Virus record (IMG/VR): IMGVR_UViG_3300046007_010222
Span: 1-28,346 of that record
Strand: one strand, 5' to 3'
DNA: 28,346 nucleotides
From: a virus
The notes under the pieces were generated by a model. The model was not told where the DNA came from. It made no database searches and saw only the letters and a program-made list of their open reading frames with translations. Position 1 is the stretch's first letter. Each line of letters begins with the position of its first letter. Below are positions 105 through 22,601 of the stretch, in pieces. The position numbers and the translations under genes are program-made.

Positions 105-176
105 GCCCTACCCGGTAACCGTTAGCCGGCTATGTAGTGTGGGCGGGGAGCGAACCAGCCCCGCAAGGAGAAGAAG
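105..176 (+). promoter_or_regulatory. operator/promoter and hairpin leader, copy 1
   Basis: A hyphenated palindrome at 116-132 (TAACCG-TTAGC-CGGCTA, one mismatch) is followed by TATG at 131-134. A leader hairpin comes next: GCGGGG at 143-148 pairs with CCCCGC at 159-164 around a loop containing GAACC. AAGGAG at 165-170 then leads to the ATG at 177. The same order (palindrome, TATG or similar, GGGCGGG...GAACC... hairpin, start codon) occurs on the minus strand before the genes starting at 13684 and 23484. The conservation is seen directly; promoter or operator function is inferred. The rest of 36-104 shows only a T-run (81-86) beside a short inverted repeat. Confidence 0.5.
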
Positions 177-347
177 ATGGGAACGAACCGCAGCGAATGG
201 ACCGAAGCCTCCCGCGCAACGTCGGCCGAACTCCGCGCCGTCGCGAGCCTCGTCACCGCGCAGGGCCGGGTGGCCCTCGCCGAACTCGCTCGCCGCGAGG
301 AGGCCGAGGCCCGCCTCGTCGCCGCCAACCGCGCGGCGCGCTCGTGA
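177..347 (+). CDS. small hypothetical protein (56 aa)
   Basis: The ATG follows a strong AAGGAG ribosome site at 165-170. The product is short, charged and Ala/Arg/Glu-rich, and looks like one or two amphipathic helices. No family is recognised. It is the first gene after the conserved operator/leader at 105-176 and overlaps the next start by GTGA (344-347), so the two are probably translationally coupled. The position suggests a small regulatory or accessory phage protein, but nothing in the sequence shows a function. Confidence 0.55.
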   Translation: MGTNRSEWTEASRATSAELRAVASLVTAQGRVALAELARREEAEARLVAANRAARS

Positions 348-562
348 GCGGCGACCCCTTCGCACAATGGGAAGCAGAAGAAGCCGCCCGGCGCATCGCC
401 GACGCCGACCGCACCGAAGCGGATCGGCGTGCGCGCCGGGCCGCCGAGTTCGCGCGGCAGGAAGCCGCCATCGCGCGTGACGTCGCCGCCGGCGTTCGCG
501 ACGCCGAAGGCAACCTGCTCGACGAGGACCTCGGCGACGAGGAGGAGGAGGACGAGGATTAG
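344..562 (+). CDS. small acidic-tailed hypothetical protein (72 aa)
   Basis: The GTG start overlaps the previous stop (GTGA). The protein is helical and charged, with an A/R/E-rich middle and a strongly acidic C-terminus ending in EEEEDED. It has no recognised domain. Acidic tails occur on phage SSBs, DNA mimics and scaffold-like proteins, but none of these can be claimed here. Its stop (TAG, 560-562) overlaps the stop of the convergent primase-like gene (TAA on the minus strand, 561-559), leaving no space for a conventional terminator between them. Confidence 0.55.
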   Translation: MSGDPFAQWEAEEAARRIADADRTEADRRARRAAEFARQEAAIARDVAAGVRDAEGNLLDEDLGDEEEEDED

Positions 563-2103
563 GCGGCGGCCCGCTGCTCGCTGCAGGCGGCGAGCAGCCG
601 CGCCCGGTAGGTCGAGCCGTCGCGCGTGACCCGCCAGCCGGGCCGGCGGGCGAGTCGTCCGGGCGAGAAGGCTGACCAGTCGACGGCGCCTCCGTCGCAC
701 CCGAGCCCCCACGCGGCGGCAAGGAGGCGCTCGCCGAGTGCGGCGTACCACCGGCGAACGGTCGGGTCGGCGAACCACGACTCGGCCGGCAGTCGCCCGG
801 CGACCGGCCTCGCGAGTTCGGCGACGACCTGCGCGCCGCCGTCGCTGGTTCGGACGACGGTCGCCCGGCCAGAGAGTCGCCGGTCGGACGCCACGATCGC
901 CAGCACGCGCGCCGCCCACTCGTCGGCCGTCGCAGAGCCGCCGAGTCGAAGGCCGTCGAGGTCGAGCAGGATGTTCGCGACGCCGCAATCGGCCCACCCG
1001 CTCGGGATGGTGACGCCGGAGCGAAGGGTGATCGTCGCCGTCGGGAACTGCGGCTGAACGCGGATCAACCGGTCGCGAACGTCGGCGATGCCCGGTCGGG
1101 GCGGCAGGCCGCGCCCGGCGTCTCGCTCCCTCCTCGCCGCCGTCTCGAACTCGGCGTCGACTACGCAGGGCCGGACGCCGCCCCAATCGGCGGTGCGCTC
1201 TGCCCGGACGATTGCTTCGATCACGCCGCCGGAGAGGGTCGACGTACCAGCCCGCGTGACCCACGAGCCCGACCGGCCGGCGACCGCCCGGAGGCCGACG
1301 CCGACGGTCGACCCGTGGAGCTTGCGAACGCTGGGCGCCCACGGCCGGCCCATGGGCCTTCCGTTGTATCGACCCGTGATTCGGCCGGTCGTTCCGGTGT
1401 TCCAGTCGTTCGCTTCTTCCCGCTGCCGGCGGGCGACCCTCGCTCCGACGGTGCCGTCCGGCGCTCGCCGCCAGCAGAACCGGAGGGGGGCGCCGTCCGG
1501 GCCTCGGCAGACGTGGCAGACACCGGCGCCGTAGCCGAGCCGCGACGCCGGGTAGATGGAGGCCGACGGTCGGGAGTCGGCGTGAAACGGGCAACAGGCG
1601 GCGACGGGCCGGCCTCCGGGCTCGGGTAGGGTGTCGGGAGCGAAGGGGGCGAAGGGCGACTCGTCCTCGGTCGGGTGCGGCGCGTCGACGCCGAACGTCA
1701 CGAGCAGGGCGTGCGCCTCGGCGTAGGTCGCCCGCTCGGCCGGACTGGCGAACACGACCCACCGATAGCGTTCGCGACCAGTTGGAACGGCGAAGCCGAG
1801 CGCCCGGAGGGCGGCGGTGGAGATCGACCGCTCGCGGAGGCCGAGCGCCTCGAACGCGACGGTCGACGCGTACTGCGAATGGACGCCGCACCGCCCGAAC
1901 TGAATGCAGGTCGGGATGGCGAGCCGGCCACCGGCGCGGAGGTTCCAGTCGTGGTCGACCGGTCGGCGACCAAGCTGGTAGAGGAACGCGCAAGCCGCCT
2001 CCTGCTGCGGCCGGGCGAGGCCGAGCACTTCACCGGCGAGGGTCGTCGCGGCGGCCGAGGGCGCGCTCAACTTGACGGGCCTCTGCGTCGCGGATACCTT
2101 CAA
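559..2103 (-). CDS. CHC2-like zinc finger plus AEP-like primase domain protein (514 aa)
   Basis: Residues 171-199 carry CPFH...CHVC (C171, H174, C196, C199), the spacing of a DnaG/T7-type CHC2 primase zinc finger. The C-terminal part has three motifs in the order of archaeo-eukaryotic primases: LLDLDG (D381, D383), TSDGGAQ (419-425, where the usual His is Gln), and D475...R483..RRPG (486-489). An additional Cys pair lies at C66 and C72. The likely role is primer synthesis or plasmid-like replication initiation. The TTG start has AGGA six bases upstream. The gene is on the opposite strand to nearly everything around it and is separate from the primase-helicase at 9860. The motifs are seen; the family call is inference, and the Gln substitution could mean loss of activity. 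A longer minus-strand frame at 122-1993 has no such motifs. Confidence 0.5.
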   Translation of the reverse strand: MKVSATQRPVKLSAPSAAATTLAGEVLGLARPQQEAACAFLYQLGRRPVDHDWNLRAGGRLAIPTCIQFGRCGVHSQYASTVAFEALGLRERSISTAALRALGFAVPTGRERYRWVVFASPAERATYAEAHALLVTFGVDAPHPTEDESPFAPFAPDTLPEPGGRPVAACCPFHADSRPSASIYPASRLGYGAGVCHVCRGPDGAPLRFCWRRAPDGTVGARVARRQREEANDWNTGTTGRITGRYNGRPMGRPWAPSVRKLHGSTVGVGLRAVAGRSGSWVTRAGTSTLSGGVIEAIVRAERTADWGGVRPCVVDAEFETAARRERDAGRGLPPRPGIADVRDRLIRVQPQFPTATITLRSGVTIPSGWADCGVANILLDLDGLRLGGSATADEWAARVLAIVASDRRLSGRATVVRTSDGGAQVVAELARPVAGRLPAESWFADPTVRRWYAALGERLLAAAWGLGCDGGAVDWSAFSPGRLARRPGWRVTRDGSTYRARLLAACSEQRAAA

Positions 2104-2297: not shown

Positions 2298-2912
2298 ATG
2301 CTCGACGACCCGAACGACGACATCGCCGACGACGAGGCGAACCCGGAGGTGCTCTGGCGCGAGATCGTCTCGCTCCGCCGCCGGCTCGAACTGCGCGCCG
2401 TCGAGAACCGACAGTTGGTGGTCGCGCTCGACACGATCGGGATGTGCGCGCACGCTCAGGGTCGGCGGTTCACGATCGCGATCGTGGCCGTCGCCGACGA
2501 GGGGCTCCGGCTGAACTGCACGTCGACCCTCGTCGCCGACGCCGCCGGGGACGAGGAGGCGCTTCGGGATGGCATCGTCGCCGCACTCGCAGACTCGCTC
2601 GCCGCACTCGCCGAGGCGAGGACGATCGCGCCAGTCGCCGAGAACCTGCTCGAAGTGCTCGCCGACCTCGACGCCGACGAGGTGCTCGAAGGCACATACG
2701 GTGTCGACCCCGAGTCCGACCACGAGGACGTCGAGTCGTCGACGGTGCCACCGCTCGAAGCGGCGATCTACGAGTGGCGCAGGTCGGGCTACCCGATCAC
2801 GGTCGGGCAGGCGCCGGCGCCCGGCGAGGGGTGGGAGGAGCCCGAGCCGGTCCCGGCCGGCGCCGGGAAGGTCGTTCCGATCCGATGGCCGGGCGGCAAG
2901 GGGGAGGCGTGA
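2298..2912 (+). CDS. hypothetical protein (204 aa)
   Basis: The ATG is preceded by GGAGGA (2282-2287). The protein is acidic. It has a helical, coiled-coil-like N-terminus (LRRRLELRAVENRQLVVAL), a middle segment that looks like an alpha/beta fold, and a Pro/Gly-rich C-terminus. No known family is recognised. It is the first gene of the rightward replication block and overlaps the SF2 helicase start by GTGA (2909-2912). That coupling suggests shared expression and perhaps a role in DNA metabolism, but no motif shows it. Confidence 0.6.
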   Translation: MLDDPNDDIADDEANPEVLWREIVSLRRRLELRAVENRQLVVALDTIGMCAHAQGRRFTIAIVAVADEGLRLNCTSTLVADAAGDEEALRDGIVAALADSLAALAEARTIAPVAENLLEVLADLDADEVLEGTYGVDPESDHEDVESSTVPPLEAAIYEWRRSGYPITVGQAPAPGEGWEEPEPVPAGAGKVVPIRWPGGKGEA

Positions 2913-4402
2913 CGCCGACCCGAATCACCGTCGGCGCCGAGGTCGTCGTCCACGGGCTGCGGCCGGACGAAATGCGCGCCGTGTCGGAACTGCTCAGCTA
3001 CCCGAACCCTGAGTTCGTGCGGCGCGAGAAGGCCGGGTCATGGGTCGGCAACATCGACCCGAAGATCAGGGCGTGCCGAACCGACAAGGGCTCGCTCGTT
3101 TGCCCGCGCGGCGCGTTCCACACGGTCCGGCGCAAGTTGGCCGAACTCGGCCGCGAGGGCGTGATCGAACCCGGCACAACGTTCGTCCCGCTCCGCGAGG
3201 GCGTGCCCTTCCTTGCCCCGGACGCCGCGAGCGGTGCGCCGCGCCTCTACCAGTTGGAGGCCGAGGAGCGACTGCTCCGGCAGGTTCAGGGCTACGTCGT
3301 GCTCCCGTGCGGCGCGGGCAAGACCTTCGTCGGCGCGCGCGCCCTGATTCGGTCGGGACAGGCTGCGCTCGTCCTCTGTCACACGGGCGACCTGCTCGAC
3401 CAGTGGCGCGATGCGATCTACAGGGCGAGCGGCACGCCGCCCCGGCTGATCGGCGACGAGCACTCGGGCGACTTCCGCCCGGCGCGACCGCGCGAGGTCG
3501 TCGCCGCGTTGATCCAGTCCGTGCAGGCGGCCGGGCCGAAGGCGCTCGGCCTGCTCCGCTCCGTCGGGGCGGTGCTCGTCGACGAGGCCCACCGGGCTCC
3601 GTGCGCCGGGTACGTCGACCTGTTGGCGAAGTGCCCGGCCCGCTACCGATGGGGACTGACCGCGACGCCCGACCGGGCCGACGGGCTCGGGTTCCTGCTC
3701 GGCTACCACGTCGGCCCCGAACTCTACCGCAAGACGCCGCGCGAACTCGCTGCCGAGGGACACCTCCGGCTCCCGCGCGCGGTGCTCGTCCGCACCGGCT
3801 GGACGGCCGGCGAGGACGTGCGCGACCGGACGGGCCGGCTCGAATGGCACAAGACGGTCGCCGGGTTCTCGACCGACCCGAAGCGGGACGCTGTGATCTG
3901 CGACCTCGCCGCCGCGTGCGTCGAGTCCGGCCGCACGACGCTCGTGCTCGTCCACCGGGTCGACCACGCCGGACGGATCGCAGCGCAACTCCGGAAGCGT
4001 GGGATCGCCGCCGAGGCGGTCACGGGGCAGACCGACCGGGGGCACCGGAAGCGTCGGATCAACGACGCCCGCAGGGGCCGGGTCGACTGCCTCGTCGCGA
4101 CGCAACTCGCGGACGAGGGCCTCGACGTCCCGAACCTCGCTGCGCTGGTCACGGCCGCGCCGCAACGGGCCGAGGGCCGGGCGCTCCAACGGCTCGGCCG
4201 GCTCACGCGACCGGGGACGGACAAGCTCGCGCCGATCGCGTTCGACCTCGTGGACGGAGGCCTCGAACACCAAGCGCGGGCGAGGGCCGCAGCCTACGCC
4301 CGCGAGTACGACGCCGAGCCGGGCCGGTCCATCGACCTCGCAGCCGCGCTCGTCATGCTCCGGGGGCTCGACGCCGAGGACGTGCTCGGGGTGGCGTTGT
4401 GA
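2909..4402 (+). CDS. SF2 DEAD/DEAH-box DNA helicase, XPB/UvsW-like (497 aa)
   Basis: ATP-dependent helicase or translocase with two RecA-like lobes. Visible motifs are PCGAGKT (Walker A, about 133-139), DEAH (225-228), TATP (251-254), and QRLGRLTRPG near residue 427 (motif VI). The Q-x-x-G-R-x-x-R form and compact size fit the XPB/RadD/UvsW group used by phages for branch migration and replication restart. About 110 N-terminal residues come before the helicase core and are not recognised; they may bind DNA. The GTG start overlaps the previous stop, and the stop overlaps the MT-A70 start (GTGA). The family is secure; the exact role is inferred from the neighbouring nuclease, annealase and SSB. 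Confidence 0.9.
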   Translation: MTPTRITVGAEVVVHGLRPDEMRAVSELLSYPNPEFVRREKAGSWVGNIDPKIRACRTDKGSLVCPRGAFHTVRRKLAELGREGVIEPGTTFVPLREGVPFLAPDAASGAPRLYQLEAEERLLRQVQGYVVLPCGAGKTFVGARALIRSGQAALVLCHTGDLLDQWRDAIYRASGTPPRLIGDEHSGDFRPARPREVVAALIQSVQAAGPKALGLLRSVGAVLVDEAHRAPCAGYVDLLAKCPARYRWGLTATPDRADGLGFLLGYHVGPELYRKTPRELAAEGHLRLPRAVLVRTGWTAGEDVRDRTGRLEWHKTVAGFSTDPKRDAVICDLAAACVESGRTTLVLVHRVDHAGRIAAQLRKRGIAAEAVTGQTDRGHRKRRINDARRGRVDCLVATQLADEGLDVPNLAALVTAAPQRAEGRALQRLGRLTRPGTDKLAPIAFDLVDGGLEHQARARAAAYAREYDAEPGRSIDLAAALVMLRGLDAEDVLGVAL

Positions 4403-4956
4403 GGTTCACGACGCTCCTGCTCGATCCGCCGTGGCCTGAGTCGGGCGGCGGCAAGGTGAAGCGCGGCGCAGATCGACACTACCCGCTGATGAAGGTCCGA
4501 GACATGCCCGGCGTGATCCTCGGCTCCGGGCTCTGGACGCCGGCCGAGCACGCGCACGTTTGGATGTGGACGACGAACACCTACCTGCCCGGCGCGCTCT
4601 GGCTGCTCGGGCAACTCGGCGCCGCGTACCGGACGAACGTCGCGTGGGTCAAGGACGGCCGGCCGGGGCTCGGCCAATACTTCAGGGGCAAGCACGAGCT
4701 ACTGTTGTTCGCCACGTTCGGGAACGGCAAAAACCCGACCGTGTTCTCGGGGCGGCGCGATCTCCCGACGGTGATCGTTGCGGCGCGCGGCCGGCACTCG
4801 GCGAAGCCGGAGGCCGCCTACCGGCTGATCGAGGATAGGTCGGTCGGCTATCGCGTCGAGTTCTTCGCCCGCGCCGCTCGGCCCGGCTGGGTGTCGTGGG
4901 GGCCGCACGAGGGGCTCGCTCCGGCGATCGACCAAAAAAAGGCGCCTGTCGAGTAG
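4399..4956 (+). CDS. MT-A70-family adenine-N6 methyltransferase (185 aa)
   Basis: LDPPWPE at the N-terminus holds the catalytic DPPW (9-12). Typical MT-A70 features follow: the GKHELLLFA strand, RHSAKPEAAYRLIE, and a C-terminal LFAR-like segment (EFFARAARPGWVSWG). Phage members of this family usually methylate adenine in DNA and protect it from restriction. The protein is about the usual phage MT-A70 size. The GTG start is coupled to the helicase stop. No restriction partner is encoded nearby, so this looks like an orphan protective methylase. A second methylase lies at 8808. Confidence 0.88.
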   Translation: MRFTTLLLDPPWPESGGGKVKRGADRHYPLMKVRDMPGVILGSGLWTPAEHAHVWMWTTNTYLPGALWLLGQLGAAYRTNVAWVKDGRPGLGQYFRGKHELLLFATFGNGKNPTVFSGRRDLPTVIVAARGRHSAKPEAAYRLIEDRSVGYRVEFFARAARPGWVSWGPHEGLAPAIDQKKAPVE

Positions 4957-5004: not shown

Positions 5005-6486
5005 ATGCAAGCCGATTTCCCGGTGGCGCGACCGCGCCCGAACTCCGTCAACGCCGACCGCTACGAGGGGGTGCCGATCCTCGGCCTGCCCGCCGACCCG
5101 CGCGTCGTGCTCGTGTCGACGTCGGAGCGCGGTGCGCTCGGTTGCGACCGGCGCTGGCTCTACGGCTACGGGCTCGGGATGCGCGGCGCGCCGTCCGACG
5201 CCATGACCTACGGGACCGCGTGGCACGAGGTCATGGAGGACGTTCACCGGTTCCTGATGGCCCTGACGCCGCCTCCGTCGGCTGGGCCGACCGCGACTCC
5301 GACGCCTTACGAGGACAGCTACCTCGAAGCGTGCGGGCTCTGTCTCGTGTCGCCGATCGTCGCGACGCCGTCCGCCCCGTGCCCGTGTTGCGGCTCGGAC
5401 GGCTCCGCGCCCGGTGACGGGCCGCTGCTTCGCATCGAGTCGCGCTGGCGCGCCGAGGCCGCCGCGGGGAAGCTTGCGGCCGGCGAGGAAGGCGAGGAGG
5501 AGGAGCCGGGCGAGTCCATCGAGCAGCGGGTCGAGCGCCTCCGGCGTGCGGCGCAGGGTTGGCTCCGCGTGAATGGTCGGGTCGGCTTGCCCGGCTACGA
5601 CGTGGTCGGCGTCGAGTTGGCGGTTGCCTGCCCCGTGCGGTCGCCCGGCTCGACGAAGCCCTACAACCCCGAGGTGCCGCTCGCGTTCGTGCCGGGCGGC
5701 TGGCGGTTCGCGCGGCCCGACGACCCGTCGGCGACCGTCCGGCGGGTGCGGTGGCCGTGGTATTGGATCGGCCGGGTCGACGCCGTGTTCCGCTCGCGCA
5801 CCGACGGCTCGCTGCTCGTCGGCGAGTGGAAGTCGTCGCGCGACCCGACCGGCTACGTCCGAGGGATCACGGTCGACCCGCAGACCTACGGCTACGGCGC
5901 GATGCTCGACCACGTCCGCGACCACTTCGGCGGCGGGCGCGTCCGCGGGTTCCTGTTCGACGTCGCGTCGTCGGTGTTGCAGCGCGACCCGGACACGCTC
6001 GCCAAGGGTGGGCTCTCGGTCGCGATGAACCGAACCGTGCCCTCGTGGCGGTTCGAGGCGGCGGTCGTTGCCCGCGGCGAGGACCCGACCTCGGAGAAGT
6101 ACGCCGACCACATCTGCGCGCTCCGCGAGCAGAAGGACCCGCGCCTGTACGTCCGCGAGCCGGGCGGCATCGGGGCGATCGACCTCGCCGCGTGGCACGT
6201 CGAGACGTTCGCGATGGCGAAGCGGATCGCAGAGAACCGCCGGAACGTGGTCGACGCGATCGACGCCGGCTCCGTCGCCCTGCTGTTCCCGCGTCAGCCG
6301 GTCTGCCGCCAGCCGGGCGGGTTCTGCAGCTACCGCGGCCCGTGCTCGGCCGACGGGCCGGACGCCCGGCGCGCTTTCCCTGTCCGCGTCGATCCCGTCT
6401 GGACCGACCCGAACCTTCCGCTCGCCGCCGGAAACGACGCGGCGCCCGTTACCCAACCCTCGGAGAAAGAAGAATCATGGCTCTGA
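5005..6486 (+). CDS. PD-(D/E)XK nuclease with probable Fe-S cluster, Cas4/AddB-like (493 aa)
   Basis: The nuclease core is visible as GRVDAVF (D259) followed by GEWKSS (E274, K276), the D...ExK signature of RecB/Cas4-type exonucleases. One N-terminal Cys (C47, followed by DRRWLYGYGL) and a C-terminal cluster (C434, C441, C447) match the iron-sulfur staple of Cas4 and AddB. A second Cys-rich patch near residues 111-130 (CGLC...CPCC) looks like an inserted zinc ribbon. The likely role is resecting DNA ends to feed the adjacent Sak4-like ATPase and SSB. The ATG at 5005 has GAGG about ten bases upstream. The gene overlaps the next start by 10 bases. Confidence 0.85.
   Translation: MQADFPVARPRPNSVNADRYEGVPILGLPADPRVVLVSTSERGALGCDRRWLYGYGLGMRGAPSDAMTYGTAWHEVMEDVHRFLMALTPPPSAGPTATPTPYEDSYLEACGLCLVSPIVATPSAPCPCCGSDGSAPGDGPLLRIESRWRAEAAAGKLAAGEEGEEEEPGESIEQRVERLRRAAQGWLRVNGRVGLPGYDVVGVELAVACPVRSPGSTKPYNPEVPLAFVPGGWRFARPDDPSATVRRVRWPWYWIGRVDAVFRSRTDGSLLVGEWKSSRDPTGYVRGITVDPQTYGYGAMLDHVRDHFGGGRVRGFLFDVASSVLQRDPDTLAKGGLSVAMNRTVPSWRFEAAVVARGEDPTSEKYADHICALREQKDPRLYVREPGGIGAIDLAAWHVETFAMAKRIAENRRNVVDAIDAGSVALLFPRQPVCRQPGGFCSYRGPCSADGPDARRAFPVRVDPVWTDPNLPLAAGNDAAPVTQPSEKEESWL
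6445..6454 (+). promoter_or_regulatory. CCCGTTACC start-associated motif
   Basis: CCCGTTACCC inside the 3' end of the nuclease gene (encoding part of APVTQ), 23 bases from its ACC to the ATG at 6477. Confidence 0.4.
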
Positions 6487-8807: not shown

Positions 8808-9860
8808 ATGACGAAGCACGCCCTGAGCGCCGGGACGATCCACGTCGGCGACTGGCTCGAAGCCGACCTCGCCCCCGGCTACACCCTCGCGATCGTGGAC
8901 GGCCCCTACGGCATGGGAAAGGCGGCATGGGATCGCGTGAGCATTGACGACCTCGCCGACTGGTACGCGCCGCACGTCGCCCGCGTGTCCGCCCTGCTCG
9001 CCCCGTCGGCGTCGGTCTACCTGTGGAACACCGCCGAGGGGTGGTCGCGGCTCGACCCGGTGATGCGGGCGGCGGGGTGGACGTTTCGGGCGCTGGTGAC
9101 GTGGGACAAGGGGATCGCCTCGCTTGCAGGGAAGGGCGTCGAGGCGCTGACCGGGTGGCCCGACGTGACGGAAGTGGCTGGGTTCTACCAGCGGGAACCC
9201 AGCGAGGTTGATCTGTGGAATCGGCGCGGAGACGCGCACCCCGTTCGGCGGTATCTCGACGAAGCGCGAGAGCGCGCCGGGCTCACGAACGCGCAGGTGG
9301 ACGACGCGATCGGGGTTCGCGGAATGGCGAGACACTGGTTCTCGTGGACGCAGTGGTGCCTTCCGAGCCCGGAGCGATACGCGCAACTTCAGCGACTTCT
9401 TCCCGGTCTTGATCGAGAACTTGGCGATCTTCGCGCCGAACACGCGGACATATGGGCTCGACATCGTTCAGAGTGGGAGCAGATCAGGGCGCCATTCGCC
9501 CCCCCAATGGCGACCACGAATGTTTGGGCTGAACTGCCCGTTGCCGGCCCGGAACGGCTTCGTCTCGCTGACGGTTCGCCTCTCCACCAATGCCAAAAGC
9601 CCCTGCTGTTCGCCGAGCGCATGATCCGCGCCTCGACCCGCCCCGGTGAGCGCGTGCTCGTCCCGTTCGGCGGCACCTGTCGCGAGGCTGTGATCTGCGA
9701 GTGGCTGGCGCGAACGACGCCGGCCGATGCGCGCGGCTACGACGTGTGCGAACTGAACGCGGACGGGGTGGACTACATCGGGCCGGTGCTCGCGCAGATA
9801 CGCGGGGAGGACATGCGACCGAGGGCGGCGGGACAGGTCCGGTTGTTCGGGGGCTCCTGA
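8808..9860 (+). CDS. DNA methyltransferase with a DGPY catalytic motif (350 aa)
   Basis: LAIVDGPYGMG (D31-G32-P33-Y34) aligns with the DPPY catalytic motif IV of N4-cytosine/N6-adenine methylases, but the first Pro is Gly. A C-terminal QKPLLFAERMI helix and VLVPFGGTCREAV (near 285) match the target-side helix and the SAM-binding FxGxG motif in circularly permuted (beta-class) order. The middle (about 130-215) contains an HTH-like stretch (LTNAQVDDAIGV) that may belong to target recognition. AGGAAAT precedes the ATG. Likely an orphan methylase that protects phage DNA. The family is firm; base specificity is unknown. Confidence 0.82.
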   Translation: MTKHALSAGTIHVGDWLEADLAPGYTLAIVDGPYGMGKAAWDRVSIDDLADWYAPHVARVSALLAPSASVYLWNTAEGWSRLDPVMRAAGWTFRALVTWDKGIASLAGKGVEALTGWPDVTEVAGFYQREPSEVDLWNRRGDAHPVRRYLDEARERAGLTNAQVDDAIGVRGMARHWFSWTQWCLPSPERYAQLQRLLPGLDRELGDLRAEHADIWARHRSEWEQIRAPFAPPMATTNVWAELPVAGPERLRLADGSPLHQCQKPLLFAERMIRASTRPGERVLVPFGGTCREAVICEWLARTTPADARGYDVCELNADGVDYIGPVLAQIRGEDMRPRAAGQVRLFGGS

Positions 9861-12115
9861 TGTCGTTCCCGAAGCACGTTCTCGACGCGATCCGAGATCG
9901 CGCGGACCTCGCCGCCATGATCGGGGTGACCGTCACCCTCCGACGCGAGGGCCGCGACCTCGTCGGCTGCTGCCCGTTCCACAACGAGAAGTCTGCGTCG
10001 TTCCACGTCACGCCGTCGACCGGCCTTTACCATTGTTTCGGCTGTGGCGAGGGCGGCGGCGTGTTCGAGTGGGTCCAGAAGCGCGAGGGCGTGTCGTTCC
10101 CCGACGCGGTCCGCAAGCTGGCCGCCGAGTTGGGCGTCGACCTCGGCAGCGAGCCGGCGAAGCCGAGCGCGGCGCCTGCGGCCCGGCGTGGCCGGGTGCT
10201 CCCGATCGAAGGTGCCGGGAGCGGCGACGCCGGCGGCCGACGGAAGCGGTCGGTGCCGAGCGAGGACGACGAGCAGGGCGACGACGCGCAGCCGGAGGAC
10301 CACAAGGACGCCGAGCACCGGGCGACCAAGCTCAGGGCGTCCGCGGCGTTCCGGGCGCTTCCGTGGGGGCCGGACATCGTCGAGAAGATCGAGGCGACGC
10401 TGTGGGCCGACGACGGCGCGGCGCCGGTCCGCGAGTACCTGCTCAACCGTCGGCGGCTCACGGAGGAGACGCTGTGCGAGTTCGGCGTTGGGGCGGTCGT
10501 CGTTCGCGACGCGAGCGGGAAGGTGCTCGACCTGTGGGCCGCGATCCCAATCTACGACCGGGACAAGCGCGTCCAGAACGTGAAGCTCCGCGCGGTGCCC
10601 GGCCCGTGCCCGGCGTGCGAGTCGAAGGGCTGCGAGCGGTGCGCCGGGACCGGCAAGACGCCGGACAAGCCGAAATACCTCGCGCTCCCTCGTCGCCCCT
10701 TGCCGCTGTTCGGGGCCGACCGGCTCGACGGCAACGCGAAGCACTCGGTCTACGTCACCGAGGGCGAGTTCGACGTGCTCGCGCTCCACCAGTACGGTTG
10801 GACGAGCAACGTCGTGTCGGGCACCGCCGGGGCCGCGAAGTGGGACGACGCATGGCTCGACGAGATCGAACCCTACGAGCAAGCGGTCCTGCTCTACGAC
10901 CCCGACACGGCGGGCGAGAAGGGGGCGGACGCGCTCGCGGGCAAGCTGGGCCGGGACAAGTGCGCGCGGGTGGTCCTGCCGCACAAGGACCCCGGCGAGT
11001 GCGTGGAGCGTGGGATCGCGCGCGAGGTGGTCGAGCGGGCGGTCCGGATGGCGAAGCCGATGACCGGGCTCTCGATCGTCCGGCCGTCGTCGTTCGCGGC
11101 TGAGATCGAAGCGCGGATCGCCGACCCCGAGCGCATGGTCGGGTATGCCACGGGCTCGGCGAAGGTCGACCGGTGCCTCGGCGGCGACCGGCCGGGGCTA
11201 ACGATCGTCACCGGGGACAGCGGCTCGGGCAAGACGACGTTCACCTGTTGGCAGGCATGGGAGCGGGCTCGGATCGGAGTCCCGTCGCTCACGACCGCGT
11301 TCGAGCAGTCGCCCGTCATGTTCGCCGAGAAGCTGCTCCGGCTTCAGATCGGAGGCGACTTCAGCCGGGCGACGCCGGCCGAGCGTGCCGCCGCGTGGGC
11401 GGCCCTCGACGCCTTGCCGCTCTACGTCGTCGGGCACCACGGGCAGACGAACTACGACGACATCCTCGCGACGGTCCGCTACGCGGTGCGGCGGCTCGAC
11501 GTGAAGTTCGCCCTGCTCGATCACCTCGGGTACTTCGTCGACCCGGACGCGAAGGACAAGGTGAACGAGATCGAGCGGGTCGTGAAGGGGCTCGCGCTGG
11601 CGGCGACGTCCGAGGGTTGGGCGTGCTGGCTGGTCGCGCACCCGTCGAACCAGAACATCGCTCAGCAGCGCCGGGTGCAGATGGGCGACCTGAAAGGGGC
11701 GAGTGCGATCCGGCAGGAGGCCGCGGCCGTGATCGTGGTCGAGCGGAACCCGTCGTCGCCGAGCCGGGCGTTCCCGAGCACGAGCCTGCACTTCGACAAG
11801 GTGCGCGCCGAGTGGGGGCTCGCTGGGTCGTCCTGCTGGCTCGCGTTCGATCCCGAGTCGACCCGGTACGCCGACGGCTGGGAGCAGACGCCGATGGGCG
11901 CGCGCCTCGGGGGCAAGCCGCCGCCGAACGCGCCGGGGGCGCCCGTGGACGTCGGGGCCGACGGCGAGGCCCGCACGGGGCCTGTCCGGCGCCGTAGGAC
12001 GGTGCCGGCCGAGGAGGCGGGCGAGGTCGCGCCGCCGAAGCCGGCCGTCCCGTCTTGGCACGACCGGGACGAGCGCGACGACGTCACGCTCGACGCGGAC
12101 GGGATTCCGGTCTGA
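9860..12115 (+). CDS. bifunctional DNA primase-helicase, T7 gp4-like (751 aa)
   Basis: The domains run in order. A CHC2 zinc finger (C38, H41, C59, C62) recognises priming sites. Next comes a primase body with an inserted zinc-ribbon (CPAC...CERCAGTG, about 250-265, DnaJ-like spacing). The TOPRIM core shows VTEGEFD (about 300) and LLYDPDTAG. A DnaB-type helicase domain follows, with Walker A GDSGSGKTT near residue 452. The C-terminus is low-complexity and acidic. It would unwind the fork and lay down primers. The ATG overlaps the methylase stop (TGATG). Length and order match phage primase-helicases. The window also encodes a separate AEP-like primase at 559-2103, which is unusual. Confidence 0.9.
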   Translation: MSFPKHVLDAIRDRADLAAMIGVTVTLRREGRDLVGCCPFHNEKSASFHVTPSTGLYHCFGCGEGGGVFEWVQKREGVSFPDAVRKLAAELGVDLGSEPAKPSAAPAARRGRVLPIEGAGSGDAGGRRKRSVPSEDDEQGDDAQPEDHKDAEHRATKLRASAAFRALPWGPDIVEKIEATLWADDGAAPVREYLLNRRRLTEETLCEFGVGAVVVRDASGKVLDLWAAIPIYDRDKRVQNVKLRAVPGPCPACESKGCERCAGTGKTPDKPKYLALPRRPLPLFGADRLDGNAKHSVYVTEGEFDVLALHQYGWTSNVVSGTAGAAKWDDAWLDEIEPYEQAVLLYDPDTAGEKGADALAGKLGRDKCARVVLPHKDPGECVERGIAREVVERAVRMAKPMTGLSIVRPSSFAAEIEARIADPERMVGYATGSAKVDRCLGGDRPGLTIVTGDSGSGKTTFTCWQAWERARIGVPSLTTAFEQSPVMFAEKLLRLQIGGDFSRATPAERAAAWAALDALPLYVVGHHGQTNYDDILATVRYAVRRLDVKFALLDHLGYFVDPDAKDKVNEIERVVKGLALAATSEGWACWLVAHPSNQNIAQQRRVQMGDLKGASAIRQEAAAVIVVERNPSSPSRAFPSTSLHFDKVRAEWGLAGSSCWLAFDPESTRYADGWEQTPMGARLGGKPPPNAPGAPVDVGADGEARTGPVRRRRTVPAEEAGEVAPPKPAVPSWHDRDERDDVTLDADGIPV

Positions 12116-13417: not shown

Positions 13418-13684
13418 TTACGCCGCTTCGGCGGCGGCGACGGCGCGCTCGGCGAGGATGACGCCCCACCGGGCGTCGTTGCAGCGGGCGGAGGCGGCGT
13501 CGATGGCGGCGGCGGCCTTGGCGGCGGCGGCGCGCTCGGGGGAGCCGAGGTCCGTGCCGAATGCTGCGGTATATGCGGCGTCGGCCGCGCGAGATGCGCC
13601 GACGGCGTTCGCCTTGGCGGCCTTGGCGGCGCGCTCGGCGGAGGCGAGGGCGAGGAGGGCGGCGGTGAGGTTCGAGGCGTTCAT
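13418..13684 (-). CDS. Ala-rich small protein (88 aa), operator-linked
   Basis: More than a third of the residues are Ala and the whole protein reads as long amphipathic helices, likely a small helical bundle. No family is recognised. Its upstream region is the notable feature: a perfect 17-bp palindrome and a hairpin leader nearly identical to those before the gene starting at 23484. This suggests control by the same regulator. The ATG at 13684-13682 is supported by that shared leader position. The GC-rich codons also allow an open frame on the other strand (13458-13733), which lacks the conserved leader and is taken as a shadow. Confidence 0.6.
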   Translation of the reverse strand: MNASNLTAALLALASAERAAKAAKANAVGASRAADAAYTAAFGTDLGSPERAAAAKAAAAIDAASARCNDARWGVILAERAVAAAEAA

Positions 13685-13694
13685 CTTGTCGTCC

Positions 13695-13758
13695 GGGGTT
13701 GTTCGCGGGTTCCTTCCCGCCCCTCAATCATAACCGGCTATCGGTTATCGTCGAGAAG
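13695..13758 (-). promoter_or_regulatory. operator/promoter and hairpin leader, copy 2
   Basis: Read on the minus strand: a perfect palindrome TAACCG-ATAGC-CGGTTA (13747-13731) overlaps a good -10-like TATGAT, with a possible -35 (TCGACG, 16 bases before it). A leader hairpin follows (GCGGG-AAGGAA-CCCGC, 13720-13705). A 20-base stretch (13704-13723) is identical to 23508-23527. It lies between the leftward gene at 13684 and the rightward helicase at 13826, so it could control both. The identity is seen; regulator and promoter function are inferred. Confidence 0.6.
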
Positions 13759-16024: not shown

Positions 16025-17343
16025 ACCCCGTCGTCATCGTCGCCGGGACGCGTCCCGAGCACCTGAAGGTCGCCGAGGTGATTCGCGAGCTTCGCGGCTG
16101 CGGCCGCACGGTTCGCTACGTCTGGACCGGCCAGCACACATCCCCTTCCCTCGCCGCCGACGTGTTCGCCGCGACCGATGGCCCGTACCCCGACGTGGTC
16201 CTGCCGTGGCCGGCGGTCAAGGCGCGGTCAGGCAGATCGCCGAGGGTCGGCGCTGACAAGCCGCCGCAGTTGGTTTGGGCCGCCGCCCTCTGGTCGGCCT
16301 CCGCGATCGAGCCGCACCTCGCCGACGCGGCGCTCGTCCTCGTCCAAGGCGACACGGCGTCGGCGCTGGCCGGGGCGCTGGCGGCGAAGCGGGTCGGGGG
16401 GCTCCCGCTCGCGCACCTCGAAGCTGGGCTGCGGTCCTACGACTGGACGATGCCGGAGGAGCACGTTCGGGTGGCGATCGACGCCGAGGCCGACCTGCTC
16501 TTGTGTCCCTCGCCGCTCGCCGCCGCGACCTGCCGGATCGAGCGCGCCGCGCTGACGGCGAAGCGGGGGCGGCGAGGGTCGGCGAGGATCGCCCACGTCG
16601 GGCAGACCGGGATCGACTCGCTCGTCCGGGCGGCGACCGCCGACCGCGACTGGCCGTCGTTCCGGGCCGGGATCGAGGCCCTGTTTGCGGCCGACGAGGG
16701 CCGGTGGGCGCTCGTGACGCTCCACCGGGCGGCGCTGACCGACGACCCGGCCCTGCTCAGGGCGACCGTCGCGTCGATCGCCGGGGCGTGCGTCGAAGCC
16801 GGCTACCGTCCGGTGTGGGCGACCCACCCGAGGGTGACGGGGAACCCCGGCCACGCGAAGGCGCTGTCGGCGTTCCTCGCGCTCGGCGGCAGGGTGATCG
16901 ACCCGCTCGGCTACCGTACCCTCGCCGCCCTGCTGCTCGCGCGCGACGGCCGAGGCGAGGTGTCCGGGTTCGCCGACCGTGCGATCGTCGTCACCGACTC
17001 CGGCGGGCTCGCGGAGGACGCGGCGTATGCACGAGTGCCGGTCGTGATCGTCCGGCCGACGACCGAGCGGCAGGAGCTTCTCGCGGCGTTTCCGTGGCGG
17101 GTCGGCATCGCCGCGCCCGGCTGGGACGACTCGGCGATGCGCGGGGCGGTGAAGGACGCGGTGGCGGCGACGAGGGGCTACGCGCCGATTCCTCCCGAGT
17201 ACGGATACCGCGACTTCCTCGGCGTCGCCCCCTATCCCTACGCGCCGCCGCTCGTCGCGAACCTGACCGGCGAACTGTCGGCGTCGGCGACGACGGCCCT
17301 CGCGATCTCGGACTACCTGACCGCCGGTTATAAGGCCGACTGA
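16021..17343 (+). CDS. wecB: UDP-N-acetylglucosamine 2-epimerase, WecB-like (440 aa)
   Basis: Non-hydrolysing epimerase fold (GT-B type) that interconverts UDP-GlcNAc and UDP-ManNAc. Family signatures are plain: AGTRPEHLK at the N-terminus, TGQH, VQGDTAS (D111, matching the catalytic Asp), HLEAGLRS (E134), MPEEHVR (E146/E147), LHRA (H235), and TDSGGLAEDA...RPTTERQE at the C-terminus. All catalytic positions known from E. coli WecB appear present. It is somewhat longer than typical, with a Tyr/Pro-rich C-terminus. Its place between a helicase and the preQ0 operon is unusual. It might supply a sugar nucleotide for DNA or surface glycosylation, but no glycosyltransferase is visible nearby. Confidence 0.88.
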   Translation: MNPVVIVAGTRPEHLKVAEVIRELRGCGRTVRYVWTGQHTSPSLAADVFAATDGPYPDVVLPWPAVKARSGRSPRVGADKPPQLVWAAALWSASAIEPHLADAALVLVQGDTASALAGALAAKRVGGLPLAHLEAGLRSYDWTMPEEHVRVAIDAEADLLLCPSPLAAATCRIERAALTAKRGRRGSARIAHVGQTGIDSLVRAATADRDWPSFRAGIEALFAADEGRWALVTLHRAALTDDPALLRATVASIAGACVEAGYRPVWATHPRVTGNPGHAKALSAFLALGGRVIDPLGYRTLAALLLARDGRGEVSGFADRAIVVTDSGGLAEDAAYARVPVVIVRPTTERQELLAAFPWRVGIAAPGWDDSAMRGAVKDAVAATRGYAPIPPEYGYRDFLGVAPYPYAPPLVANLTGELSASATTALAISDYLTAGYKAD

Positions 17344-18346: not shown

Positions 18347-18933
18347 CCGATCTTGCCGCCGCGTCTGCCGCCGTTCGCGACCTGTTGCGGGCACTCGGGG
18401 AGGACCCCGAACGCGAGGGCCTGCTCGACACGCCGATGCGGGTAGCGAAGGCGTGGGACGAGATTCTGTCGGGTCGGCTGCTCGACCCTGCCGCCGTCCT
18501 GAAGACGTCGTCCGGGGCTGACGGGTTCGACGAGGTCGGCGGCTATGACCAAATGATCGTCGTGTCGAGCATCCCGTTCGCGTCGGTCTGCGAGCACCAC
18601 ATGCTGCCGTTCATCGGGCACGCTGACGTCGGCTACCTTCCGGGTGCGTCGGGTCGGGTGGTCGGCCTGTCGAAGATTCCACGGCTCGTCGACGCGTTCG
18701 CGCGCCGGCTGCAGGTTCAGGAGCGCATGACCCAGCAGGTCGCCGACGCGCTTCTGACCCACCTCGGCGCGCAGGGCGTCGGCGTTCGGATCACAAGCGA
18801 GCACCTCTGCGCCTCTTGCCGTGGCGTCCGCAAGCAGAGCCGGATGGTCACGGAGGCGCTGCTCGGCAAGTTTCGCGAGCACGCCGTTCGCGAGGAGTTC
18901 TGGCACCTTTCAGACCGAGGACGTACCGCATGA
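18343..18933 (+). CDS. folE: GTP cyclohydrolase I (FolE) (196 aa)
   Basis: Makes 7,8-dihydroneopterin triphosphate from GTP, the first step to preQ0. CEHHMLPF (C83, H86) and HLCASCRGV (C156) supply the three zinc ligands of type I enzymes; Ser/Cys follow where Met is common. GRVVGLSKIPRLVDAFARRLQVQERMTQQ is split here as GLSKIPR and RLQVQERMT, both strong FolE signatures. It is shorter than the E. coli enzyme at the N-terminus, as in many phage copies. The GTG start overlaps queE; the stop overlaps the ParB-like gene (ATGA). A phage copy in a que operon most likely serves deazaguanine synthesis and not folate. Confidence 0.94.
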   Translation: MTDLAAASAAVRDLLRALGEDPEREGLLDTPMRVAKAWDEILSGRLLDPAAVLKTSSGADGFDEVGGYDQMIVVSSIPFASVCEHHMLPFIGHADVGYLPGASGRVVGLSKIPRLVDAFARRLQVQERMTQQVADALLTHLGAQGVGVRITSEHLCASCRGVRKQSRMVTEALLGKFREHAVREEFWHLSDRGRTA

Positions 18934-19553
18934 GCAAGCCGAAGCCGAAGGACGGGGAAGTCGCCGCCGAGTGGGTCGAAGCGTCGTCCCTCGTTCCGTG
19001 GGAAGGCAACCCGAGGATCAACGACCACGCAGTCGAGAAGGTCGCCGCGTCGATCGTCGAGTTCGGCTGGGCCGAGGTGATCGTCGCTCGCCGGGCGGAC
19101 AGTATGGTCATTTCGGGGCACACGCGCCTGAAGGCCGCGCAGAAGCTCGGCATGACACGAGTCCCGGTTCGGTTCCTCGACGTGGACGACCGGCAAGCGC
19201 GCAAGCTGGCACTCGCCGCGAACAAGCTCGGCGAGTTGTCGGTGTGGGACAACGACGGGCTCGCAAAGGTGCTTGCCGAGTTGACCGCCGAGTATGGCGA
19301 CCTCGACCTGACGTTCGACGCCGAGGCGCTCGGCTTCTCGAAGTTGGAGATCGACGCGCTGCTCCGGTCGCCCGGCGCGTGGGCGTCCGAAGGCGCGGTC
19401 GACCCCGGCTCGATCGGGGACTACGACCCGGCGGCCGAAACGTATGTGATCAAGGTGCTCGGGATCAAGGCGGCAGACCGGGACGCGACGCTCGACGCCG
19501 TGACCGCCGCGCTCGCCGCCCTTGGGACCGGCTACGTCGCCAAGGCGTTTTGA
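18930..19553 (+). CDS. ParB/sulfiredoxin-fold protein, candidate DpdA partner (207 aa)
   Basis: The N-terminal ~100 residues are a ParB nuclease-like domain: LVPWEGNPRIND, a helix, VIVARRADSMVISGHTRLKAA (G63-H64-T65-R66 is the box II signature), then VPVRFLDVDD. The C-terminal part is the helical region (LAKVLAELTAEYGDLDL) common to phage ParB-like proteins. Such proteins bind or nick DNA or hydrolyse nucleotides. It is cotranscribed between folE and two dpdA genes. Bacterial dpd islands pair DpdA with DpdB, a ParB/Srx-superfamily ATPase, so a similar partnership is a reasonable inference. The domain is firm; the role is not. Confidence 0.8.
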   Translation: MSKPKPKDGEVAAEWVEASSLVPWEGNPRINDHAVEKVAASIVEFGWAEVIVARRADSMVISGHTRLKAAQKLGMTRVPVRFLDVDDRQARKLALAANKLGELSVWDNDGLAKVLAELTAEYGDLDLTFDAEALGFSKLEIDALLRSPGAWASEGAVDPGSIGDYDPAAETYVIKVLGIKAADRDATLDAVTAALAALGTGYVAKAF

Positions 19554-20558
19554 TTGACGACGGGGACCGCGAGCTTTGCGACGGACGAACCGGTCGTGAT
19601 CGACGGGGTTGCCCGTTGTCGGTTCCCGTACCTCGTGAGCTATGCGTACCTTCGCCAACGACCGGCGGCGCAAATCCGGACAATCCTCGACGACCCGCGT
19701 CGGGAGGTGCTGCTCGACTCCGGCGCGTTTACCGCGTTCAATGCGGGCAAGGCGATCGAGGTCGGCGATTACATCGACTTCCTTCACGAGTGGAAGGACA
19801 AGCTGTTCGGGTATTTCCTGCTCGACAAGATTCAAGACCCGGCGGCGACCGAGGCGAACTGGCAGACCATGCTCGCCGCCGGCCTGTCGCCGATCCCGAT
19901 CCACGTTTTCGGCGAGGACGGCGCTGCGATGGATCGGTTCTTCGAGCGGTCGCCTTACGTCGGACTCGGCGGGTTTCGTCGTCCGTCGAGGGGGAAGGCT
20001 CCGATCGAGTACGTCAAGCAGAAGATGACGTGGGCCGCCGCGCGGCCGGTCCACTGGCTCGGGTACACCGACGAAGAAACGCTGCGCGCGTTCCGGCCGT
20101 TCTCGTGCGACAGCGCGTCAGCGTGGGCCGCCTCGCAGTTCGGCGTGTGCCACCTGTACCGCGGGAATGGCAAGTGGTGGGCCGGCGAGCACCACGAGTG
20201 GATCAAGGTGTCGGGAGCCGAGGCTCGGTCGCTGCGAGCAACGCTGGTCGAATACGGGTGTTCACCCGACGCGCTTGACAGTGCCGATTCGTGGCGGTGG
20301 CAGAACGCAAGCGAGGCTGAACGCGTGTGCGACACGCGGACGTATGTTCGGACGTCACGCAATCATGATCAACCGACCCACGTTGCGGCGCACCTCGCGG
20401 TTCGTTCGTTCGTTCGGTACATATATGACATTCGTCGCATGTTCGGGACGCGGGTGTTCCTCGCCTGCACTTGCGACACCCGGTTCGACCGGATCGTCGA
20501 CTGTGCGTTGGAGGTCGCCCACGCTCGCGGCTGGGATCGACCGTTGGGTGTGGCGTGA
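19554..20558 (+). CDS. dpdA: DpdA-like DNA guanine transglycosylase, copy 1 (334 aa)
   Basis: A TGT-fold protein predicted to swap guanine for preQ0 in DNA. LLDSGAFTAF (D55) matches the DSGGFQ active-site loop of tRNA-guanine transglycosylases, and FSCDSASAW (D186) is at the second catalytic Asp position, in the phage DpdA form. VGLGGFRRP is the Gly-rich substrate loop. The start is TTG directly after the ParB-like stop, with AAGG eight bases upstream. The 3' third contains four TTCG units (20401-20416) and is visibly less GC-rich than the neighbouring genes. The stop overlaps the next dpdA start (GTGA). A tRNA enzyme is less likely given this phage operon. Confidence 0.82.
   Translation: MTTGTASFATDEPVVIDGVARCRFPYLVSYAYLRQRPAAQIRTILDDPRREVLLDSGAFTAFNAGKAIEVGDYIDFLHEWKDKLFGYFLLDKIQDPAATEANWQTMLAAGLSPIPIHVFGEDGAAMDRFFERSPYVGLGGFRRPSRGKAPIEYVKQKMTWAAARPVHWLGYTDEETLRAFRPFSCDSASAWAASQFGVCHLYRGNGKWWAGEHHEWIKVSGAEARSLRATLVEYGCSPDALDSADSWRWQNASEAERVCDTRTYVRTSRNHDQPTHVAAHLAVRSFVRYIYDIRRMFGTRVFLACTCDTRFDRIVDCALEVAHARGWDRPLGVA
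20401..20416. repeat. (TTCG)4 short tandem repeat in dpdA-1
   Basis: Four TTCG units in the coding region for VRSFVR. Gain or loss of one unit would shift the frame. Four units is short for a phase-variable tract, so this is only noted. Confidence 0.5.
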
Positions 20559-20753
20559 CCAAGGTTCCCATCCTTGCGAGCTATGCCTACCTTCGGGAAA
20601 CTGATCCCGACCGCGTGCGGCAACTCGTTGCAGATCCACGGATTGAGTTCCTGCTGGATTCTGGCGCGTTTACGGCGTTCAATGTTGGGAAGGCGATCGA
20701 CTTGCAAGATTACATCGCGTGGGTCCATGCGTGGAAGTCGCACCTGTTCGGCT

Positions 20754-20805
20754 ACATGGCGCTCGATGTGCTCCAAGACACATGGCGCTCGATGTGCTCC
20801 AAGAC
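20754..20805. repeat. exact 26-bp tandem duplication in dpdA-2
   Basis: 20754-20779 and 20780-20805 are identical and directly adjacent (each starts ACATGGCGCTCG and ends CTCCAAGAC). Because 26 is not a multiple of three, the dpdA-2 frame is broken. Flanking bases differ (20753 T against 20779 C; 20780 A against 20806 C), so the unit is exactly 26 bases. Confidence 0.95.
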
Positions 20806-21128
20806 CCGGTTGCCACGGACGCCAACCAACAGACGATGATGGCGGCGGGCTTGGTTCCGATTCCTGTTCATGTATTCGGTGACGACGAAGCGAGGATGAA
20901 CCAACTGTTCAGCTATTCCTCTTGGGTGGCGCTGGGTGGGTTGCGTCGCCCGCATCGGGGAGCCGCGCCGGACACCTATGTCAAGCTGAAGATGAAGTGG
21001 GCGGCCGGCAGGAATGTTCATTGGCTTGGGTATACCGAACAGGCGATGATCAAGGGGTTCTCCCCGTATTCTGTGGACTGTGCGTCGTGGACGGCCGGAC
21101 GCACGTTCGGACAGATGCACGTCTATAT

Positions 21129-21137
21129 GGGGGGGGG
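21129..21137. repeat. run of nine G in dpdA-2
   Basis: A homopolymer of nine G within the downstream half of dpdA-2 (ATG-GGG-GGG-GGA codons). Runs of this length are prone to slippage in polymerases and sequencers. It is the longest G run noticed in the window. Confidence 0.85.
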
Positions 21138-21489
21138 AGACATGCTCAACTTCGCTGAGCCCGATTGGAGGGCTGGGCGGTTCCGGGCCGGACTTGCGGC
21201 AAGCAAAGTCAGGGCGGCTGTGGCGCGACTTGGGATAGACCCCAAGGTGTTCGACCTGTCAGAAAGCTGGCGGAATCAACACTATGTTCACCGAGTGCAG
21301 ATGCTCAACGCTCGGTCGTGGATCGCGTACTCGTTGGACGTCAAGAAACATCTTGGCACGCGCCTGTTCGTGTCGGTGTTGCCCGACAAGCAAGACGTCG
21401 ACGCGATCGTGGCCGCCTTGGATTGGGCGTGTGGACCTATCCGTCAACCAACGATTGCCGGCCTTAGTGCTGTTGGATAGGGAGTAATG

Positions 21490-21921
21490 ATGAAGCCGAC
21501 TTGTACCCGCCGCTTGGAGTTCGACGCCGCCCATCGGGTGACGCGCCACGAGTCGAAGTGTCGCAACCTGCACGGGCACCGGTACGCCGTCGAGATCACG
21601 GTCGAGGCCGACGGGCTCGACGAGTGCGGCCGGGTGGTAGACTTCGGCGAGGTCAAGTCGATCGTCGGGACGTGGATCGACGAGCGGTGGGACCACGGGA
21701 CGCTCCTGCATCCCGATGACGTCGACCTGCACGCGCTCTGCGATGCCTCCGGCTGGCGGCACTACACGATGTCGTCTGAGCCGACCGCCGAGAACATCGC
21801 CGCCGAACTCGGGCGGGTTGCCGGGGAACTGCTCGCCGGCCGAGGGCTGCGGATCGTCCGCGTCCGTGTCTACGAAACGCCGAACTGCTGGGCCGACTGG
21901 CTCGGCCCGGAGTCCACATGA
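21490..21921 (+). CDS. queD: 6-carboxytetrahydropterin synthase (QueD) (143 aa)
   Basis: Makes 6-carboxy-5,6,7,8-tetrahydropterin from dihydroneopterin triphosphate. Zinc ligands H15 (in FDAAHR), H28 and H30 (HGHRY) and catalytic C24 (C-RNL-HGH) match E. coli QueD. VVDFGEVK, the PTAENIA helix and VYETPNCWADW complete the family pattern. Two ATGs stand side by side (21487, 21490). GGGAG at 21480-21484 is two bases from the first and five from the second, so the second is preferred. The stop overlaps queC (ATGA). It lies downstream of the broken dpdA-2, so it needs its own ribosome site, which it has. Confidence 0.93.
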   Translation: MKPTCTRRLEFDAAHRVTRHESKCRNLHGHRYAVEITVEADGLDECGRVVDFGEVKSIVGTWIDERWDHGTLLHPDDVDLHALCDASGWRHYTMSSEPTAENIAAELGRVAGELLAGRGLRIVRVRVYETPNCWADWLGPEST

Positions 21922-22601
21922 AAGCCAAGTCGATCGCCGTCGTCCTGTTCTCGGGGGGGCAGGACAGCACGACGTGCCTGTATTGGGCGCGTGACCGGTT
22001 CGAGCGCGTGGTCGCGCTGTCGATCCACTACGGGCAGCGCCACGCCGTCGAGGTCGAGGCCGCGCGCACCATCGCGGCGGCGGCAGGGGTCGAGCACGAG
22101 GTCTTGGAGGTCGGCCGCATCCTGCGCGGGACGTCGCCGCTCGTGTCGGACGCGCCCGTCGGGCAGTACGCCTCGGCGAACGACCTGCCGGGGGGCGTCG
22201 AGCCGACGTTCGTGCCGGCTCGGAACGCGCTGTTCCTCGTCCTCGCAGCCAACGTTGCCACGGTGCTCGGGTCGCGCGACCTCGTGACCGGCGTCTGCGA
22301 GGCCGACTTCGGGGGCTACCCCGACTGTCGACGCGACTTCATCGACGCGATGGAGCGGACGCTCGGGCTCGGGATCGACGGCGACGCCGAGGCGTTCCGC
22401 GTCCACACGCCGCTGATGTACCTCACGAAAGCGGACACGGTGAGGCTTGCGCAGGCGTTGCCGGGCTGCATGGAGGCCCTCGCCGACTCGCACACCTGCT
22501 ACCGGGGGGAGCGCCCCCCCTGTGGCAAGTGCCACGCCTGCATCATTCGGGCGCGGGGCTTCGACGAGGTCGGGGTCGTCGACCCGATCTCAGGCCAGTA
22601 A
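21918..22601 (+). CDS. queC: 7-cyano-7-deazaguanine synthase (QueC) (227 aa)
   Basis: Uses ATP and ammonia to convert 7-carboxy-7-deazaguanine to preQ0. FSGGQDSTTC (11-20) is the PP-loop ATP-binding motif, IHYGQRHAVE is a QueC signature, and the C-terminal C-x7-C-x2-C-x2-C (TCYRGERPPCGKCHAC) binds zinc. The length is the normal single-domain size, with no fused amidotransferase domain. This argues for preQ0 and not the G+ (archaeosine-type) base as the operon's product. It overlaps queD by ATGA and is the last gene of the operon. A seven-G run lies in the PP-loop codons. Confidence 0.95.
   Translation: MKAKSIAVVLFSGGQDSTTCLYWARDRFERVVALSIHYGQRHAVEVEAARTIAAAAGVEHEVLEVGRILRGTSPLVSDAPVGQYASANDLPGGVEPTFVPARNALFLVLAANVATVLGSRDLVTGVCEADFGGYPDCRRDFIDAMERTLGLGIDGDAEAFRVHTPLMYLTKADTVRLAQALPGCMEALADSHTCYRGERPPCGKCHACIIRARGFDEVGVVDPISGQ

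Follow-up and report, generated by a model that had tools for sequence, protein, structure and literature searches.

Among described primases of the archaeo-eukaryotic (AEP) superfamily, RepB' of plasmid RSF1010 (structure 3h25) works with a separate helicase. Host Pol III elongates the RepB' primers; ColE2 Rep binds its own origin (both PMC4538821). RepB' carries no zinc-binding motif and has a C-terminal helix bundle after its AEP domain. Many AEPs need the His of motif II, yet PolpTN2-like and RepB' enzymes have a conserved Gln at that position; PolpTN2 itself, with this Gln, is an active primase and polymerase in which a motif IV Arg (Arg231), following motif III, is essential (PMC5862659). 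Among the PolpTN2-like AEPs (PrimPol-PV1 supergroup), PolpTN2 has its AEP domain first, ahead of PriCT-1, PriL-like and winged-helix domains. In the All3500-like PrimPol of cyanophage S-2L, which has the motif II His and no N-terminal zinc site, the AEP domain also comes first, before PriCT-2 and another C-terminal domain. No separate TOPRIM primase-helicase is annotated in S-2L, and its PrimPol is the sole possible polymerase, with an adjoining SF2 helicase and a PD-(D/E)XK nuclease nearby (PMC8065100). Eukaryotic PrimPol and herpes UL52 combine an AEP domain with a C-H-C-C zinc finger on a single polypeptide, the finger standing after the AEP domain and motif II having its His. DnaG and T7 gp4, finally, share the CHC2-type zinc site.

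We analysed a window of 28,346 nucleotides (virus record IMGVR_UViG_3300046007_010222, positions 1 to 28,346), whose minus strand encodes at 559-2103 a protein of 514 amino acids that combines features of these systems differently. Unlike RepB', it carries a zinc site and another domain before the AEP domain; no significant sequence link between the two proteins was found, and the RepB' order (AEP then PriCT-1, no zinc site) is not that of the window family. As in eukaryotic PrimPol and UL52, AEP domain and zinc finger share one chain, but here the finger precedes the AEP domain and gives a weak match to the DnaG type. The likeness to DnaG and T7 gp4 ends with the zinc site (PF01807, weak): neither Pfam nor PHROGs matched a TOPRIM domain in the window protein, and its catalytic domain is of unrelated origin. 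The window family thus represents an AEP with a DnaG-like zinc finger preceding the catalytic domain.

Gene call, domain layout and homologues

The ORF at 559-2103 (minus strand) is a real gene. It opens with TTG, an SD sequence (AGGA) lies a few bases upstream, and its codon-position GC (0.72/0.63/0.88, with the high GC3) is the coding pattern of the other genes in the genome. It recurs without a single base difference in two further IMG/VR contigs from this virus. A longer overlapping ORF (122-1993, minus strand) was rejected, as the genome's coding pattern is absent from it (0.83/0.70/0.69).

When the complete protein and its separate domains were used as queries, IMG/VR yielded identical copies alone, while phage, plasmid and genome-contig sequences yielded no match; a query with the CHC2 part alone brought up ordinary DnaG-type proteins. 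Relatives were reached through the neighbouring SF2 helicase (2864-4402), which led to syntenic phages; an HMM from the first three sequences then gave further members, and a six-member alignment more. The final set holds 14 distinct proteins, all from uncultivated phages, and the family is carried by the window phage and at least 13 relatives. No relative was found when 50,697 phage records were searched with four family members. The AEP domain matched nothing in Pfam, NCBIfam, PHROGs or PDB sequence searches, where the zinc finger alone was detected, and the family is absent from the databases searched. Because DxD and RRPGW were part of the search pattern that found L136 and L141-L149, conservation of those motifs is biased there; it is free of bias in L101, L103, L115, L119 and L123, which were reached via the helicase, and conservation of the Gln, the zinc ligands and the third Asp is unaffected throughout.

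Three parts can be discerned in the protein. The first (residues ~1-145, 1669-2103, minus strand) is helical in the AlphaFold2 model; it is conserved across the family and degenerate in the window's own copy. The CHC2-type zinc site follows at residues ~165-223 (1435-1611, minus strand), and the AEP domain at residues ~255-514 (562-1341, minus strand). The initial annotation had proposed a two-part chain, a zinc finger fused to an AEP-like domain located at its C-terminal motifs: both parts are present, while the layout includes the additional N-terminal domain and the AEP domain reaches well beyond the motifs.

For the zinc finger, profile scores are low and the ligands invariant. In the window protein the match to PF01807 is weak (E 0.018, 15.3 bits, below the curated cut-off of 24.9) and that to the PHROG 'DNA primase' phrog_360 has an E of 2.5e-4, yet the CHC2 match recurs in 10 of the 14 homologues (best E 3.1e-4). 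Residues 170-199 read CCPFHADSRPS...CHVC, and the ligands C171, H174, C196 and C199, together with P172, D176, P179 and S180, are kept in 14/14. All 14 have the zinc site N-terminal to the AEP domain, with which the chain ends.

The N-terminal domain has no Pfam or PDB match; a winged-helix label would be a guess and was not adopted. In L116 (9156-9866) and L120 (7960-9210) the domain stands free of zinc finger and AEP, directly upstream of the same helicase, and L125 likewise has an N-terminal-domain-only protein just upstream of the helicase. Its occurrence alone in these three phages suggests that the domain has a separate role and that the zinc-AEP part was added to it.

Motifs and predicted fold of the AEP domain

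The catalytic motifs were placed correctly from the start: DLDG lies at residues 381-384, TSDGGAQ at 419-425, and D475...R483..R486-R-P-G spans 475-489. They do not result from chance, as all of them persist across 14 homologues whose identity to the window protein is only 22-31%. Invariant in 14/14 are D381, D383, T419, G423, Q425, D475, R483 and the run R486-R487-P488-G489-W490-R491; the residue preceding D475 varies among V, L, A and P in the 14 homologues, and the family shows the hhhDhD of motif I and the hD of motif III. The sxH of the superfamily's motif II is not found. The Gln seen initially in place of the usual His proves to be invariant (Gln425, 14/14), so that the family is a clear case of Gln fixed in AEP motif II. 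This does not exclude it from the superfamily, since a family-specific Gln in this motif is already described for the PolpTN2-like and RepB' AEPs (PMC5862659); nor is it a sign of inactivity, as the active PolpTN2 has the same residue.

The comparison with PolpTN2, in which Q179, R231 and N237 were confirmed on the plasmid sequence, extends to the order of motifs: both have DxD, then TG..GLQ.W with Gln, then the motif IV Arg followed by Pro. TGGGLQLW and DPARIVRAP of PolpTN2 stand against TGPTGLQIW and GRFGRRPGW in the window family, and R486-x-P aligns with R231-A-P; the PrimPol-PV1 feature of a motif IV Arg with a relaxed motif II is thus present, R483 and R486 being invariant. Unlike PolpTN2, the window family has Leu or Val in place of Asn237. 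With S-2L PrimPol, the D-x7-R-h-x-R-x-x-G spacing after motif III is identical as judged by eye.

An AlphaFold2 model from three sequences was too poor (pLDDT 36.5 overall), with the core strand order already right; with 14 sequences, pLDDT rose to 82-95 for most of the 370-470 stretch and to 63.6 for the whole chain. In the Foldseek comparison with the PDB, ranks 1-13 are all AEP structures (probability 0.77-1.00), headed by the LigD PolDom 4mky (E 6.1e-4, probability 1.0) and including HSV UL52 primase, HP0184 and Prim-PolC. VIA gave AEP matches of Z 7-8.4 that span model residues ~264-511, the best being RepB' 3h25 (Z 8.4, 135 aligned, 3.7 A), then Prim-PolC (8.1), LigD (8.0) and S-2L PrimPol (7.9). 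From this span, the AEP domain is predicted to begin near residue 255 and to fill the remaining chain. MscS/MSL channels scored higher in VIA (Z 9.5, ~87 residues) and were set aside, as they cover only residues 375-472, a likeness judged to reflect the common ferredoxin-like arrangement.

None of the 14 members matches an AEP Pfam family, and the profile comparison with S-2L PrimPol and PolpTN2 did not rise above shuffled controls, so that superfamily membership rests on fold and motif order. As modelled, the domain of residues ~255-514 shows the AEP catalytic fold, an RRM-like module together with an N-terminal module, and belongs to the AEP superfamily. The checks called for in the initial annotation thus came out in favour of the domain where structure prediction and motif conservation are concerned; of the profile searches, CHC2 answered weakly and the AEP models remained silent.

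Replication module and intergenic hairpins

The AEP gene faces a divergent operon on the plus strand. The operon starts with a 204-residue protein (2298-2912) and an SF2 (ResIII-like) helicase (2864-4402), recognised by Pfam and homologues and syntenic with the AEP gene in relatives; a PD-(D/E)XK (Cas4/RecB-like) exonuclease (5005-6486) belongs to the same module, as SF2 helicase and PD-(D/E)XK nuclease do among the S-2L replication genes. The divergent pair of AEP gene and SF2 helicase occurs in 10 phages, and this conserved layout accounts for the reverse-strand position. In L101 the module additionally holds a Sak4-like annealing protein and RecU. Two DNA methyltransferases (4402-4953, MT-A70 type; 8808-9857, N6/N4 type) are found inside the replication module of the window. 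Beside the module of L004 (13670-14869 and 15017-16624) and of L104 (12402-13970), a MoxR-like AAA ATPase / VWA-domain-like pair was assigned by eye.

The T7-type primase-helicase reported in the initial annotation is confirmed at ~9701-12115 (plus strand), with CHC2 (E 3.5e-30), TOPRIM and DnaB_C; its ORF overlaps that of a methyltransferase, and translation probably begins further downstream. The pairing of two primases of unlike descent is no peculiarity of the window: 12 of the 14 AEP-bearing phages have this TOPRIM/DnaB primase-helicase. Standard annotation would credit phages of the family with the T7-type primase alone. If the AEP is active, two primases of different ancestry coexist stably in one phage lineage, and the dedication of one of them to origin priming becomes testable. 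The AEP gene is absent from the available contigs of the related phages L100, L104 and L124, and hence not essential to the whole group.

DNA polymerases of family A were absent in 22 records, of family C in 21 and of family B in 13, in records not known to be complete and with weak controls in the search for protein-primed family B enzymes. Several of the polymerase-negative records (G000-G021) are 61-86 kb long and carry the primase-helicase.

Strong hairpins lie in the intergenic region between the divergent genes (z -5.3 in L103, z -3.0 in the window). The one in the window, a GC-rich hairpin followed by CGTTTTTT (2139-2172), is terminator-like and possibly an origin or leader hairpin. Five relatives have another hairpin between the AEP and helicase genes (L142 9649-9716, L144 9727-9800, L146 9713-9778, L147 9630-9698, L149 8818-8888), in a single copy per record, with a 13-bp stem and an invariant 22-base loop, AGCACAGTGTCAGCAGCGCAGG. 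In the stem 90.8% of cells are paired and three pairs are changed on both sides, against less than 47% pairing in slid versions; coming from five related sequences of one subclade, this apparent covariation is supportive, not conclusive. Rfam holds no match for the hairpin. It stands ~10-15 nt from the helicase ATG, for which reason it may equally be an mRNA leader; overall, it may be an origin, an ssi-like priming site or an mRNA leader.

Possible roles of the AEP protein

The intact Asp triad, the Gln-type motif II, the Arg motif after motif III and the replication-recombination context are shown by computation. Origin priming, repair and defence had initially been suggested as special roles for the second primase; the genomic context favours replication. 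The best explanation, to which we would give an even chance, is an initiator primase of the AEP superfamily, similar to RepB' or ColE2 Rep, that leaves the extension of its primers to host Pol III. A site on the phage DNA, possibly in the divergent intergenic region, would be recognised by the N-terminal domain together with the zinc site, and the AEP domain would synthesise the first primer at that site. Extension would fall to the host's own replicase, presumably Pol III, after which the T7/DnaB-type primase-helicase would unwind the fork and prime the lagging strand. Such a scheme is the RepB'/ssi or ColE2-Rep mode of working, performed by a protein of different architecture. More tentatively, we consider it possible that a polymerase-less phage lineage splits priming between two unrelated enzymes: the zinc-finger AEP of the new family would initiate at a structured site flanked by the two divergent replication genes, the T7-type TOPRIM primase-helicase would prime the moving fork, and the hairpin with the 22-base loop would be the priming site.

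The main competitors to an initiator primase are a replicative and a repair or restart PrimPol. A replicative primase-polymerase (PrimPol) as in S-2L and NrS-1, copying much or all of the genome, would explain why family A, B and C polymerases are absent from the records searched; S-2L itself offers the precedent, and the AEP domain matches polymerising AEPs in both Foldseek and VIA. RepB', an equally good match, is however described as primase-only, host Pol III serves many phages, and the records may be incomplete. The PrimPols of S-2L and NrS-1 have extra domains (a helicase domain in NrS-1) that the window protein lacks, and there are related phages whose contigs encode this primase-helicase and no AEP gene. 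We consider this role doubtful. The absence of the gene from some relatives would suit a repair or restart PrimPol, which would renew priming or close gaps at ends that have stalled or are recombining, together with the SF2 helicase, the Sak4-like protein, the PD-(D/E)XK exonuclease and RecU. The recombination genes adjoin, and the NHEJ polymerase domains of LigD are the best Foldseek matches, although LigD PolDom is heavily represented among the AEP entries of the PDB. No Ku gene was found in the NHEJ check, the protein is not fused to a ligase, and the divergent helicase-side placement and extra N-terminal domain resemble an initiator locus, so that a repair function appears unlikely.

Two further explanations carry little weight. 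That the change from His to Gln left the AEP domain catalytically dead, the protein being only a DNA-binding initiator, could be argued from the motif II His that is essential in many AEPs (PMC5862659). We regard it as very improbable, given that none of the 14 homologues departs from the three Asp or the Arg motif and that PolpTN2 is active as primase and polymerase with Gln at the same site (PMC5862659). An enzyme of defence or inter-phage conflict is disfavoured and hardly credible: PADLOC gives weak zinc-finger matches to DRT-associated models and nothing more, in most relatives the AEP gene is part of the replication module, and there is no conserved defence partner gene.

Outside the replication module, the window carries at 18816-22601 a ParB-like protein, a TGT/DpdA-like transglycosylase, PTPS (QueD-like) and QueC, a set for 7-deazaguanine DNA modification. 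A UDP-N-acetylglucosamine 2-epimerase (16027-17340, E 1.6e-40) follows a DinG-like helicase. A 75-base repeat, 91% identical between intergenic regions, occurs at 13674-13747 in the window and at 16703-16776 in L004, with similar letters near 107-140 of the window; it contains a TACC.GGTAACCGTTAGCCGGCTATG-like stretch and may be a promoter or regulatory element of the phage.
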